A stretch of DNA of 64,000 nt from Carboxylicivirga sp. M1479 (GTDB lineage: Bacteria; Bacteroidota; Bacteroidia; Bacteroidales; Marinilabiliaceae): positions 1-64,000 of the forward strand of contig NZ_VKDE01000016.1 of assembly GCF_007097485.1 (NCBI RefSeq), in the 5' to 3' direction. Below are positions 1-52,303 of this stretch, in pieces. A program made the translations under genes and the position numbers. The notes beneath the pieces were generated by a model that was given only the letters and a program-made list of their open reading frames with translations, ran no database searches and was not told the DNA's origin. Positions within the stretch are counted from its first letter, which is position 1. Every line of letters begins with the position of its first letter.

Positions 1-12
1 GAAACCCCGTAT

Positions 13-236
13 ATGAAACTGACTTCAAACGCTAAGCACACAGGACTATTGCCTCGAGCATGAACATGAAAATTTAACTTCTTGGCGTTTACAACTTATT
101 TTGAAACAAACTCTATGTCAGAGAATAACAAAATTATAAACACATGAAACGAGCCATGAAAATAGCTTCTCTAACTGGAGCATGATTAATTTTGGCGAGT
201 TCCATGTGGCTAATAAAAACAAAATTTAAACACATG
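13..236 (+). repeat. Leader repeat in front of gnd (about two units)
   Basis: Two units of a dispersed leader element end on the gnd start codon. The near unit (144-236) holds a 13-codon ORF from ATG 144 whose stop (183-185) overlaps the next ATG (182) as ATGA; that second ORF of 15 codons ends at 229, five bases before the gnd ATG. CATGTG at 203-208 can pair with CACATG at 231-236, which contains the gnd start codon. The farther unit (13-143) is degenerate but keeps an ATG at 13, the CACACAGGA segment and a GCATGA junction. Close relatives are at 2968-3160 and 51800-52099 on the minus strand. The repeat is seen directly; its role as a translation leader is inference. Confidence 0.75.
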
Positions 237-1688
237 AAAAAGCTATCTGATATAGGATTAATAGGTTTGGCTGTTATGGGGGAAAACCTGGTACTCAATA
301 TGGAAAGTAAAGGGTATAGGGTCTCTGTGTACAATCGATCAACCGATAAAGTAGATAATTTTGTTAATGCGCGTGGAAAGAACAAGAACATTGTTGGTAC
401 ATACTCTTTGGAAGAATTGGTAAATTCCTTGGAACGCCCTCGTAAAGTGATGATGATGATAAAAGCAGGCGCAGCAGTTGATGCTACGATTGAAGCTTTG
501 TTACCCTTGTTAGAGTCTGGCGATGTAATTATTGATGGAGGAAATACACATTATCCTGATACAGAGCGTCGAGTTCAGAATGTTGAGAAAGAGGGTATAC
601 ATTATATTGGGGCTGGTGTTTCTGGAGGAGAAGAAGGTGCTTTATTAGGGCCTTCTATTATGCCAGGCGGCTCACAAGTAGCTTGGCCTTTGGTTAAACC
701 AATCTTCCAATCAATCGCTGCAAAGGTAGAGGATGGTTCTCCATGTTGCGATTGGGTCGGAGAAAGTGGAGCCGGACATTTTGTTAAGATGGTTCATAAC
801 GGTATTGAGTATGGAGATATGCAATTGATAAGTGAGGCTTATCATTTATTAAAAGACTATGTGGGTTTATCTGCCGATGAAATGCATGAGGTTTTTAAAC
901 AATGGAATGAAGAAGAACTTGATTCTTACTTGATTGAAATTACGCGCGATATATTAGCATTTAAAGATGAAGATGGCGAACCGCTTGTTGAAAAAATATT
1001 GGACAAAGCGGGGCAAAAGGGAACCGGTAAATGGACCGGCATTACAGCTTTGGATTTAGGCACGCCTTTGACATTGATTGGAGAAGCTGTTTTTTCGCGA
1101 TGCCTTTCGGCTATTAAAGACGAAAGAGTTAAAGCATCGAAAATATTATCGGGGCCAACACCTCAATTCGACGGAGATAAAGTGCAGTTTGTAAAAGCAG
1201 TTAAGGATGCATTATTTGCTTCAAAAATTGTGTCTTATGCTCAGGGGTATGCTTTAATGCGTGCTGCTGCAGAAGAGAAAGGCTGGCACTTAAACTATGG
1301 TGGAATTGCGTTAATGTGGCGAGGTGGATGCATTATTCGCTCTGCCTTTTTAGGTAAAATTAAGGAGGCCTTTGATAACGAGTCAGAGCTTAGCAATTTA
1401 TTATTAGACCCTTATTTTAAAGAGGCTGTAGAGAAAGCTCAGAATGGTTGGCGTCAAGTAGTGGCCGCAGGAGTTATAAATGGTATTCCAACACCTGCTT
1501 TTGCAACAGCACTAAGCTATTACGACGGTTATCGCTCAGAAAATTTACCTGCTAATTTGTTACAGGCTCAGCGTGACTATTTTGGTGCACATACATATGA
1601 ACGCATTGATAAACCCCGAGGAGAATTTTTTCATACCAATTGGACAGGACGAGGTGGAGTTACAGCAAGTACAACCTACAATGTATAA
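234..1688 (+). CDS. gnd: 6-phosphogluconate dehydrogenase, decarboxylating
   Basis: Oxidises 6-phosphogluconate to ribulose 5-phosphate and CO2 with NADP in the oxidative pentose phosphate pathway, in the cytosol. The 484-residue product has the nucleotide-binding start GLIGLAVMGENL (8-19), the substrate loop GGNTHYPD (102-109), GVSGGEEGA (128-136) and the catalytic region HFVKMVHNG with Lys185 and Asn189. Length fits the long, E. coli-like form. ATG 234 is chosen because the protein family starts there and the upstream bases belong to the leader repeat; an in-frame extension to 192 would only translate that repeat. It stands alone, followed by a strong terminator. Confidence 0.96.
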   Translation: MKKLSDIGLIGLAVMGENLVLNMESKGYRVSVYNRSTDKVDNFVNARGKNKNIVGTYSLEELVNSLERPRKVMMMIKAGAAVDATIEALLPLLESGDVIIDGGNTHYPDTERRVQNVEKEGIHYIGAGVSGGEEGALLGPSIMPGGSQVAWPLVKPIFQSIAAKVEDGSPCCDWVGESGAGHFVKMVHNGIEYGDMQLISEAYHLLKDYVGLSADEMHEVFKQWNEEELDSYLIEITRDILAFKDEDGEPLVEKILDKAGQKGTGKWTGITALDLGTPLTLIGEAVFSRCLSAIKDERVKASKILSGPTPQFDGDKVQFVKAVKDALFASKIVSYAQGYALMRAAAEEKGWHLNYGGIALMWRGGCIIRSAFLGKIKEAFDNESELSNLLLDPYFKEAVEKAQNGWRQVVAAGVINGIPTPAFATALSYYDGYRSENLPANLLQAQRDYFGAHTYERIDKPRGEFFHTNWTGRGGVTASTTYNV

Positions 1689-2496: not shown

Positions 2497-2970
2497 TTAT
2501 TGTTTTTCTGGCCACATAGGCATTTCAGCTTCATCATCCCAGAATGGCCCCCACTGAATCTCAGTTAATATATCATGGTCAAAAAACAAATTGAGGCTAA
2601 AATCGGAATTGGCAGCTAATGATTGTTCAAGAAGAATCTCCGACGATAAATCTTCCATATCAAACTCACCAAGGTTAAAAACCTCCATTTGCTCCATTAC
2701 TTCGCCCTGGCTTAAACCAATTAAGTCAATGCCTTCAAAAAGTAATTCAGGAGATGCGGATGTAATCGATGTTAACTTCCAATTGCAATCTTCTTCAAAT
2801 GATAAAGAAAGATGCTGATCATCGTAGTGCCAAGCTTCCATTGCTCCAGAATCCTTGTCGCCATCCATTTTCTCAATTTCACTAGGCTCACCTATCAATT
2901 GACTTATTTCGTCTCTATTTAAACCAAAAATAATTTTACCTAATCCTTGTCCTAAGGTGATGTCTTTCAT
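2497..2970 (-). CDS. Unknown acidic protein behind a leader repeat
   Basis: I do not recognise this family. The product from ATG 2970 is 157 residues, acidic, without signal peptide or membrane segment, beginning MKDITLGQGLGKIIFGLNRD. The segment IIFGLNRDEISQLIGEPSEI resembles the short helix-plus-Gly-Glu-Pro motif seen in several small fold families, but that is weak. An in-frame ATG at 3021 would add 17 residues that are entirely leader-repeat sequence; because the same repeat is out of frame in front of gnd, I prefer 2970. Its 3' end abuts that of the sigma-factor gene. Confidence 0.65.
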   Translation of the reverse strand: MKDITLGQGLGKIIFGLNRDEISQLIGEPSEIEKMDGDKDSGAMEAWHYDDQHLSLSFEEDCNWKLTSITSASPELLFEGIDLIGLSQGEVMEQMEVFNLGEFDMEDLSSEILLEQSLAANSDFSLNLFFDHDILTEIQWGPFWDDEAEMPMWPEKQ

Positions 2971-3160
2971 GTGTTTAAGTTTTGTTTTTATTGCCACATG
3001 GAACTTGCCAAAATCAATCATTCTATTTGTGAAGTAATTCTCATGGCTTGTTTCATTTGTTTATAATTTCTAATCATTTGCCATATGGAACTCTCTAGTA
3101 AATTTATCATCTTTCTGTCTGAAAATCTAGATGTTAAGTTTACTTGGTAGCTTCATATAC
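2968..3160 (-). repeat. Leader repeat in front of the unknown gene (two units)
   Basis: Read on the minus strand, a 30-codon ORF from ATG 3110 ends in a TGA that overlaps ATG 3021 as ATGA; that ATG runs in frame into the gene. A more distant, degenerate unit has an ATG at 3156. CACATG (2995-3000) and CATGTG (2968-2973) can pair and enclose the ATG at 2970, as at gnd. The outer unit is of the CATATG subtype and is more decayed. Confidence 0.75.
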
Positions 3161-35819: not shown

Positions 35820-35975
35820 GTTGTTTCATTTGGAATAATACCATTTCGATTATGAAATTAACACTCGGTATAATGCCGATCGATTAATGACAGTGTTATA
35901 CGCAAAGCAAGTTTAACGCTAAGGTCATTAACTAATCGGTATAACTGTTTCAAGTGGTAAATATTTTTTGCAAAG
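35820..35975. repeat. Inverted repeat ahead of the 21-bp array
   Basis: Within a gene-free stretch, the arm near 35869-35891 (with GCCGATCGATTAATGAC) pairs imperfectly with 35924-35945 (GTCATTAACTAATCGGTATA). The small palindrome CGGTATAATGCCG (35866-35878) lies at its left edge. The inner loop repeats GTTATACGC and GTTTAACGC directly. Confidence 0.5.
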
Positions 35976-36186
35976 TGCACTTGAAGGTTGGCAAAATGTA
36001 CTTGAAGGCTGGCGAAATGCACTTAAAAGACGACAAAGTGTAGCGCATAGGGAGATTTGTGTACAGCATAGGCAGCAATGTGCACTTGAAAGGGAACAGA
36101 GCCTACTTGAAAGACAGCAAGGCCTACCTGATAGTCAGAAATACGTACTTGTAAGGGATCAATTGTATACTTGCCACTTGAATTAA
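35976..36186. repeat. Degenerate tandem array, 21-bp unit, about ten copies
   Basis: Units start at 35976, 35997, 36018, 36039, 36060, 36081, 36102, 36123 and 36144, exactly 21 bases apart, then at 36166. The conserved half reads TGYACTTGAARG; the other half varies widely. Because 21 is a multiple of three, an ORF of heptad-like peptides stays open across it on the plus strand, but the codon pattern gives no reason to call a gene. Confidence 0.8.
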
Positions 36187-50932: not shown

Positions 50933-51790
50933 TTAAGATTGATTACTAAGTTTAAACTCCTTAATCATTTCATTCACTGATTTATGAGGGCGCTTGCTAA
51001 TTGTTAAAAAGTCCGATGCCACATCGTTTGCACCATTTCTAATGCCTTCATAAATTCCCCCAATAATGGTTCCTAAAAATTCGCCTAATGCAGTTTGCCT
51101 TTGCAGTATATAGGCATCAACAGGAATGTTTTTGAATGTCAATTTGGTGTTAAAGCCAAGATTAATGGCATCCGCCAACTCTTGTTGGGTTATTGGTACA
51201 CCGCATAAATTGTATGTTTTACCCTGTAGTTCATCATTCATGAGTAAACGGGTATAAGCAAAGGCTAATTCCTGTCGTGATGTATATGCACACTTACCAT
51301 CAGCCGCACAGTTTATTATAGCACCTTCTTGTTTGTAAATCTCAATGTATTCCAAATCTGGTTCAATGTAAATGCCATTTCGTCCAATGGCCCATTGCAA
51401 ACCCGACTGTCGAATATCCTCTTCGGTTTGCCTGTTACTGGCAACAATAGCACTAAAAGCATTGCCTTTTTCAGCACCAATAATACTGGTATAAACAATT
51501 TTTTTCACAGCAGTATTTTTAGCAGCCTCAATAACATTACGGTGTTGCTCAATGCGTTTGTCAGGATGATCCATGCCTGAGACTAAAAGCACGGCATCAA
51601 CATCTTTTAAGGCCAGATTAAAATCGGCTTGAACATTGTAGTCGCCCTTTCGTACTTCTACGCCAAGATGTTTAGCATTTTCGGCTGTGCGAGCAATACC
51701 TATAATATCCCTTGCATCCAATTCTTGCTTTAATTGATTGATGACTGCAGATCCAAGATTCCCGCTGGCTGACGTGACCGCTATTTTCAT
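50933..51790 (-). CDS. NmrA-like / SDR-family NAD(P)-binding oxidoreductase
   Basis: 285 residues from ATG 51790: MKIAVTSASGNLGSAVINQL is the Rossmann glycine-rich start (Gly-x2-Gly-x2), followed by GDYNVQADFNLALKDVDAVL and KKIVYTSIIGAE. Resembles NmrA/QorB-type NAD(P)H:quinone oxidoreductases. An in-frame ATG at 51823 adds eleven residues that are leader repeat; ATG 51802 lies inside the repeat stem. Substrate unknown. Confidence 0.83.
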   Translation of the reverse strand: MKIAVTSASGNLGSAVINQLKQELDARDIIGIARTAENAKHLGVEVRKGDYNVQADFNLALKDVDAVLLVSGMDHPDKRIEQHRNVIEAAKNTAVKKIVYTSIIGAEKGNAFSAIVASNRQTEEDIRQSGLQWAIGRNGIYIEPDLEYIEIYKQEGAIINCAADGKCAYTSRQELAFAYTRLLMNDELQGKTYNLCGVPITQQELADAINLGFNTKLTFKNIPVDAYILQRQTALGEFLGTIIGGIYEGIRNGANDVASDFLTISKRPHKSVNEMIKEFKLSNQS

Positions 51791-51799
51791 GGCTCGTTT

Positions 51800-52099
51800 C
51801 ATATGATTATAATTTGCTTTCATTTGCCATATGGAACTCTCAAGTAAATTTTATCATCCTCCTGTGTGAAAATTTGGATAATCAAATTTACATGGTCGTT
51901 TCATATGATTATAATTTGCTTTCATTTGCCATATGGAACTCTCAAGTAAATTTTATCATCCCCCTGTGTGAAAATTTGGATAATCAAATTTACATGGTCG
52001 TTTCATGTGTTTAAATTTTGTTTTTTATTGCCACATGGAACTCGCCAAAATTAATCATGCTCCTGTGTGAGAAACTAATCTCATGGCTCGTTTCATATT
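51800..52099 (-). repeat. Tandem leader-repeat array in front of the SDR gene (three units)
   Basis: Start codons at repeat ends lie at 52096, 52006, 51904 and 51802, giving units of 90, 102 and 102 bases. The two 102-base copies (51800-51901 and 51902-52003) differ at one position, T at 51860 against C at 51962. Each unit contains a short ORF whose TGA overlaps the next ATG (at 52058, 51959, 51857). The outer unit is the CATGTG/CACATG subtype; the inner two are CATATG/CATATG. CCATATGG is at 51827-51834. Confidence 0.9.
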
Positions 52100-52303
52100 A
52101 CAAATATTTTATGCATCAATAACTGAGATATTTATATAAGATGCAATAGCTTTGGTAGGATAAAACAAGTGTTGTACCAATGTAAGTCACATTCATTTGG
52201 CACTTGAAGGTATAGCAATGCCAACTATAAGGTTAAAAATTGTAGGAAACCTCGTAAAAAGCCTCTTGAATTTTATACACAACAAGCATGATGAAAAGTA
52301 AAT
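52100..52303. other. Gene-free stretch upstream of the leader array
   Basis: No gene is visible. It should contain the minus-strand promoter for the SDR gene, but I found no exact TAnnTTTG box in the right direction. Confidence 0.4.

Follow-up and report, generated by a model that had tools for sequence, protein, structure and literature searches.

The closest described systems are the IS1111/IS110 insertion sequences (IS), which insert at specific sites and in a specific orientation without added bases by means of a seekRNA or bridge RNA. This is a short non-coding RNA with target-matching segments, and the main seekRNA peaks of three IS1111 members lie at 82-96 nucleotides (nt) (PMC11187229, PMC11208160). 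Here we describe short units found in a 64,000-nt stretch of Carboxylicivirga sp. M1479 (contig NZ_VKDE01000016.1, positions 1 to 64,000; hereafter the window, and the strain the host) and dispersed through its genome and those of its relatives. These units insert exactly and in sense orientation at ATGAA, mostly at start codons. They share the mode of insertion of IS1111/IS110 elements, while differing from them in the absence of a transposase gene, in their size of 84-106 bp and in their start-codon sites. We consider it likely that the unit is a protein-less, guide-carrying, non-autonomous mini-element related to IS110 transposons and moved in trans by IS110-like enzymes; by analogy, it would work like a non-autonomous IS110/IS1111 element. 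The unit was not filed as a member of these families because it has no transposase and because its closest transposon, ISa, shows no subterminal inverted repeat.

To judge by the title of a 1997 study by Doran et al. (cited in PMC8141618), IS900 of Mycobacterium avium subsp. paratuberculosis, an IS110-family element, reportedly targets translation initiation signals. IS900 is a full transposon with its own transposase, and the literature consulted mentions no short protein-less derivative, whereas the units are protein-less. The mini-elements of the REP/RAYT and IS200/IS605 systems have short hairpins and guide-to-end base pairing and cause no target duplication. The units differ from these in two respects: their motif is absent from the host's Y1 transposase loci, and the associated transposons belong to the IS110 family. 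QMITE2 of Coxiella burnetii is a short dispersed repeat and insertion target of an IS1111-group element, with terminal inverted repeats and variable direct repeats, located mainly in 3' untranslated regions and intergenic DNA (PMC5896051). In the window's genome, likewise, the IS110-family transposons ISa and ISb sit beside units; unlike QMITE2, the units show no inverted repeats around the array, occupy start-codon sites and have a 5' half resembling the ISa left end. The open-licence literature searched, which lacks most subscription papers, yielded no account of start-codon units that carry a guide and no protein gene.

Exact insertion at ATGAA, mostly at start codons

Directly before an SDR-type gene on the minus strand stand three head-to-tail units of 90, 102 and 102 nt, the latter two with a single-base difference; on this array, unit lengths and the single difference agree with the preliminary description. 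The units of the window and their neighbours are listed below, where the guide motif is the internal GTTCCATNTG and the guide base is its base N.

52007-52096, minus strand: short-class unit, 90 nt, first of the SDR array; guide motif GTTCCATGTG at 52032-52041; last base 52007, complemented by the guide base
51905-52006, minus strand: long-class unit, 102 nt, second of the SDR array; guide motif GTTCCATATG at 51930-51939
51803-51904, minus strand: long-class unit, 102 nt, third of the SDR array; guide motif GTTCCATATG at 51828-51837
51791-51802, minus strand: 12-nt ATGAAACGAGCC, in frame with the SDR gene, equal to the first 12 nt of a short-class unit; probable scar
50936-51802, minus strand: SDR-type NAD(P)H-binding gene (Pfam NAD_binding_10); native start probably 51790, from the start codons of relatives
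1-143, plus strand: right end and non-coding region of the IS110-family transposon ISa, with a sequence type shared by the ISa right end of locus L086
144-233, plus strand: short-class unit, 90 nt, abutting gnd; guide motif at 199-208
234-1685, plus strand: gnd, 6-phosphogluconate dehydrogenase (Pfam 6PGD)
3057-3156, minus strand: degenerate long-class unit, 100 nt; guide base not complementary to its own last base
2971-3056, minus strand: short-class unit, 86 nt, abutting a 157-aa open reading frame (ORF); guide motif at 2995-3004
2500-2970, minus strand: 157-aa ORF behind two units, start at 2970; no Pfam match

Leaders of the same family had been placed at 13-236, before gnd, and at 2968-3160, before an unknown gene. 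The first is a unit at 144-233 only, since the preceding stretch (1-143) corresponds in sequence to an IS110-family right end, and the second does hold the unit family, in the form of two units rather than one leader (3057-3156, degenerate, and 2971-3056). That the last unit runs into the start codon is true of gnd and the 157-aa ORF. At the SDR gene the ATG that follows the last unit (51802) is in frame, but the likely native start, ATGAAAATAGC (51790), comes 12 nt further downstream: the orthologues in relatives G006, G009 and G011 start at ATGAARATAGC and that in G005 starts 9 nt earlier, and all four of these closer orthologues are without a unit at the start. As the additional 12 nt, ATGAAACGAGCC, are identical to the opening of a 90-nt unit, they are probably a scar left by a fourth one.

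A strict whole-unit pattern (ATGAAAC, gap, AGTTCCATNTG, gap, ATGAA) occurs 64 times in the host; over 14 genomes of the genus, the host among them, the total is 219. The reversed pattern, used as control, gave no match in any of these 14 genomes. A DNA search with E up to 0.001 gave matches, some of them weak, in 58 of 149 genomes (host included), reaching other families of the order. Among the 74 host core hits examined, for which ATGAA was sought 22-50 nt behind the motif, 69 were followed by ATGAA and four by the left end of ISb, and one was spurious. All counts below refer to a set of 174 distinct units from examined loci (58 from the host, 116 from relatives) and not to all 219 strict copies; it leaves out loci L139-L157 and units without a following ATGAA, with a tail outside 31-38 nt, with a length outside 84-112 nt or with a hairpin-inserted guide motif. 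The units measure 84-106 bp and fall into two classes of about 90 and 102 bp, which leaves no room for a DEDD transposase of their own.

Behind 31 of the 174 units comes a further unit or the end of a transposon; the remaining 143 are terminal. At the abutting ATG, 130 of these 143 (33 of 36 in the host) open a same-strand ORF of at least 50 codons, compared with 846 of 2969 ATGAA sites at the same loci, real starts included. Terminal host copies thus lie neither mostly off gene starts nor on the opposite strand, the two outcomes that would have spoken against the preliminary description. By rough gene models the window has 283 ATGAA sites, 20 start-like, 224 elsewhere in genes and 39 intergenic. 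If in-gene insertions were purged, about 20 of 59 remaining sites (34%) would be starts, against 91% observed (binomial p ~4e-46 for all units and 7e-13 for the host alone). The concentration at start codons seems to have two components: tolerance, with hits inside genes being purged, and an additional preference for these sites or their retention by selection. A Pfam scan matched eight of nine genes behind units, and these are mutually unrelated: gnd, SDR, dxs, HPPK (folK), YcsF, a sigma-54 response regulator, an alcohol dehydrogenase and a YfiR-like protein. A leader peptide read from the unit's own ATG was considered and set aside: in the 174 units this frame stops within 20 codons in 128 cases and at 21-33 codons in 40, and in six there is no stop in the stretch read.

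Empty sites were sought in the 130 nt before orthologue starts in genus relatives, for seven host genes with a unit. At 74 of 76 orthologous starts there was no abutting unit, counting two rows of one G006 locus (gt) once and including some distant orthologues (ycsF in G004 and G006, 55-57%); the exceptions, gnd in G012 and fah in G013, each have a different unit. At dxs the host reads ...cagctcacagagttaagagt, then the unit, then ATGAAAGAAGGC, while in G006 ...cagctcacggagttaagcat passes directly into ATGAAGGAAGGC. The same exact junction was seen at folK, where the unit again lies between native leader and ATG. Filled and empty sites compared, insertion at both genes is exact and in a specific orientation, adds no bases and leaves ATGAA, the fixed short target, as the sole repeated sequence.

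Some of this movement appears recent. Of the 58 host units, 22 differ by no more than 5 edits from some other unit of the same genome, tandem neighbours counted, and two identical 102-mers stand at different host loci. Among relatives with at least four units in the set, the corresponding fractions were 2/24 in G003, 0/18 in G012, 0/9 in G006, 2/6 in G009, 4/9 in G013 and between 0/4 and 0/6 in G004, G005, G007, G010 and G011 (0/4 in G005, 0/6 in G011). The census, the orientation and the empty sites of relatives support the preliminary proposal of a mobile repeat that supplies genes with a ready-made 5' leader by inserting at their start codons.

Unit anatomy and guide-end covariation

Comparative folding was performed on 77 unique long-class and 76 unique short-class units. 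In both classes the 5' AUG.AAC pairs with the internal GUU.CAU around a hairpin, and the next NUG pairs with the final CAN'; together with covariation, this places the unit's 5' AUGAAAC opposite GUUCCAU and the following three bases opposite the last three. For the long class (23 pairs), 94.5% of cells were canonical with 67 double changes, compared with a mean of 90.4% and at most 26 double changes in shuffles and 26-45% canonical cells in slid versions. The short class (19 pairs) gave 92.6% and 47 double changes, compared with 89.5% and at most 24 in shuffles and 16-49% in slid versions. These fold statistics lean towards themselves, because the structures were predicted on the same alignments.

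The covariation between guide and end was counted independently of any fold. In 164 of the 174 units (54 of 58 in the host and 110 of 116 in relatives) the guide base of GTTCCATNTG is complementary to the final base of the same unit, which directly precedes ATGAA; composition alone would give 61.8, and all four Watson-Crick pair types occur. On a tree built without the two bases, the guide changed on 34 branches, the end on 41 and both on 23, of which 19 were concordant and complementary. Mutual information between guide base and last base was 1.24 bits, and the next best tested position reached 0.33. Pairing of the guide with the base to the left of the insertion was considered as an alternative and rejected, since it matched in just 35 of 174 units; the logo of left flanks covers 130 of the 174 rows, picked by rule of thumb. 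The unit tail contains TGAAA in 83 of 174 units (shuffle maximum 25), possibly as a second, same-sense match to the target. In L002, L008, L010 and the upstream region of fah in G013 (L199), an extra hairpin (CCCGATAAATCGGGACAAGTA or similar) lies exactly between CAT and NTG of the guide motif.

IS110-family transposons ISa and ISb at the same sites

ISa has its own DEDD transposase (PF01548 with PF02371), with the non-coding region downstream of the gene as in the IS1111 layout; ISb matches PF01548 over the cut-off and has its non-coding region upstream, the IS110 layout. In L086, a scaffold stretch with N and a repeated segment, ISa runs from its left end ATGAAACATCC...CACACAGGGGGATGAT through the transposase to about 230 nt of non-coding DNA ending in ...AAATAC directly before ATGAAA. 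Relatives of its transposase were found at 19 named loci, including metagenome-assembled genomes (MAGs) of Salegentibacter (three copies), Saccharicrinis and Saprospiraceae. Eight loci have the ISa non-coding motif, and at six of them, in other taxa, the right end abuts the ATGAAA of an ORF of at least 179 codons; at L156 the left end of another ISa follows, and L146 has no recognisable right end. At L140-L142 (CP051246.1, chromosome record of the Salegentibacter sp. oa5 MAG), three ISa each stand directly before an ATGAAA-starting ORF. The host ISa ends that were read adjoin units, and in the Salegentibacter MAG ISa lies directly at genes.

When the ISa left end was compared with unit 5' halves, median scores were 23 and 22, with shuffled maxima of 15 and 14. 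The ISa non-coding motif NATGAAAATTTAA (NATGAAATTTTAA in L156) also carries a variable base, and this N, read by eye, equals the element's own last base in all six distinct motif-bearing elements (C, T, G, T, C, G). As this match is a same-strand identity, internal pairing does not explain it. The base before ATGAAACTGAC was rejected as the covarying base of ISa, for it equals the right-end base in just two of six elements (G000 and Salegentibacter).

ISb was found in six copies in G043 (L340, L344, L345, L347-L349), which agree over at least the first 578 bases, as well as in G005 (L341) and at four host contig ends (C41, C44, C51 and C74). It starts with CGTTAGTTTGTGG directly behind a flanking ...CA[TG]AT, inserting between AT and GAA at unit or gene junctions, and all seven left flanks read end in an A-rich stretch and CA[TG]AT. 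Its right end in L340, the sole one read, is ...TTAGAGTAT directly before the ATGAA of a gene, and the same right-end type lies to the left of units at host contigs C50, C67 and C98. Two stretches of the upstream non-coding region match the junction, TTAAACAGAT its left half and GTTTCAT its right half. Several breaks in the draft assembly, including window position 1, fall in ISa or ISb beside a unit.

A candidate mechanism and its alternatives

Pairing of the first bases with GUUCCAU and of NUG with CAN' makes the contiguous GTTCCATNTG complementary to the CAN'/ATGAAAC junction of an excised circle or a tandem array, and the tandem arrays do carry the junction sequence expected of a circle with abutted ends. 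We propose that the unit would be transcribed into a guide RNA, which an IS110-type DEDD recombinase would bind in trans by the logic of seekRNA or bridge RNA; a circle would form, and its junction would recombine with ATGAA targets. Since ATGAA stands at both ends of the element, insertion alters neither the start codon nor the frame of the gene. The native leader would be pushed 90-102 bp upstream, with the A-rich tail of the unit in its place, and tandem arrays would arise as new units land on the ATGAAAC of old ones. For these steps there are precedents in published work, where seekRNA or bridge RNA is able to act in trans and a transposase-less mini-IS moves if transposase and RNA are supplied (PMC11187229, PMC11208160).

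The earlier proposal of a new kind of regulatory element shifts in emphasis here: from its sequence, the anatomy of the unit points first to a mobile guide-carrying element related to IS110, whose leader position would express a target preference and whose regulatory effect would be a consequence. If so, the units are naturally occurring, RNA-guided mobile elements of IS110 type, pared down to one guide plus both ends. The recombinase that moves them would come from elsewhere, and they would be aimed at the start codon while leaving the reading frame intact. Well over a hundred guide/end pairs with matched changes would then form a natural record of donor/target recognition by bridge RNA, and many annotated 5' leaders of this lineage would be mobile DNA, so that leader exchange between genes is directly testable. 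More tentatively, and with somewhat less than even confidence, we suggest that Bacteroidota have a class of protein-less RNA-guided mobile 5' leaders of 90-102 bp that are programmed to the start-codon sequence, swap the leaders of dozens of unrelated genes with the frame intact, are reprogrammed by paired guide/end changes and serve as landing pads for full IS110-family transposons.

Several observations weigh against the account of a trans-mobilized IS110-related unit. Thirteen of the 143 terminal units face no long ORF, and at the array's own locus a probable 12-base scar stands between the array and the native SDR start. The ISa right end was only marginally similar to unit 3' halves (15 with a shuffle maximum of 17, and 18 with 17), and the cross control, ISa left end to unit 3' halves, also reached the shuffle maximum (15). 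The subterminal inverted repeat of the IS1111 group (7-17 bp) was not found in ISa, the longest left/right inverted match in both copies tested being 5 nt and not above shuffles, and the Salegentibacter ISa, by eye, departs from the complement rule of the units. A PF01548 match is present in just four of 10 unit-bearing genomes and absent from six, and PF02371 is matched in three of 13 and not in 10; the single-contig genome G002 combines one strict copy with the absence of a PF02371 match. The units of genomes without IS110 domains must be relics, or have been moved by another enzyme, or the transposase must be missing from draft assemblies. G013, which has neither domain, shows near-identical units in four of nine cases, as opposed to 0/4 in G005 (PF01548) and 0/6 in G011 (PF02371); apparently young copies thus do not track the IS110 domains cleanly. 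Moreover, the guide-end covariation of the units could reflect intramolecular pairing only, and the evidence on which strand folds is mixed.

This last point bears on a possible mobile element that acts as single-stranded DNA, like those of IS200/IS605 or REP/RAYT, in which the antisense strand would fold, CAN'ATGGAAC would guide cleavage at TTTCAT and a Y1 transposase would move the unit. When the antisense guide pairs with GTTTCAT, a single G-T wobble takes the place of an A-C mismatch, the consensus energy of this strand is lower (-23.2 compared with -19.5, and -25.3 compared with -22.9; single-sequence energies are alike), and the host has five Y1_Tnp matches. We nevertheless regard such an element as unlikely: GTTCCATNTG occurs at none of the five host Y1_Tnp loci, on which ground a Y1 transposase was rejected as parent, and the transposons at the same sites belong to the IS110 family. 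The sense strand is also favoured by the conserved tandem GA motifs (AACGA in 157 of 174 units and GAGTTCCAT in 160) and by the excess of G-U over A-C cells in the long class (108 versus 20), which is hardly seen in the short class (41 versus 33).

It is quite improbable, in our estimation, that the unit is a true cis-regulatory leader RNA under selection, spread mainly by recombination, with its internal pairing being ordinary RNA structure. Such an RNA would account for the conserved structure with compensatory changes and for a sense-oriented position at start codons beyond simple tolerance. However, the unit does not stay with its gene, being absent from 74 of 76 orthologous starts, the downstream genes are unrelated, array sites and identical copies resemble mobile DNA, and the same-strand identity between motif and end in ISa would be left without explanation.

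We likewise give little credence to units that are old relics of a past IS110-like system and now change only by homologous recombination, in-array duplication and decay. The failure to find IS110 domains in most unit-bearing relatives checked and the few near-identical copies in G003, G012 and G006 would fit such relics, but the near-identical copies of 22 of 58 host units and the presence of both ISa and ISb in the host do not.

A known RNA family was ruled out, as the window has no Rfam match above the gathering score, and so was a classical miniature inverted-repeat transposable element: there are no inverted repeat pairs around the array (window positions 51500-52300), and the flanking repeat ATGAA at the compared sites is a shared core and not a varied target duplication. 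Elsewhere in the window, a tandem repeat of 21 bp is present in 2.6 copies at 35970-36024.
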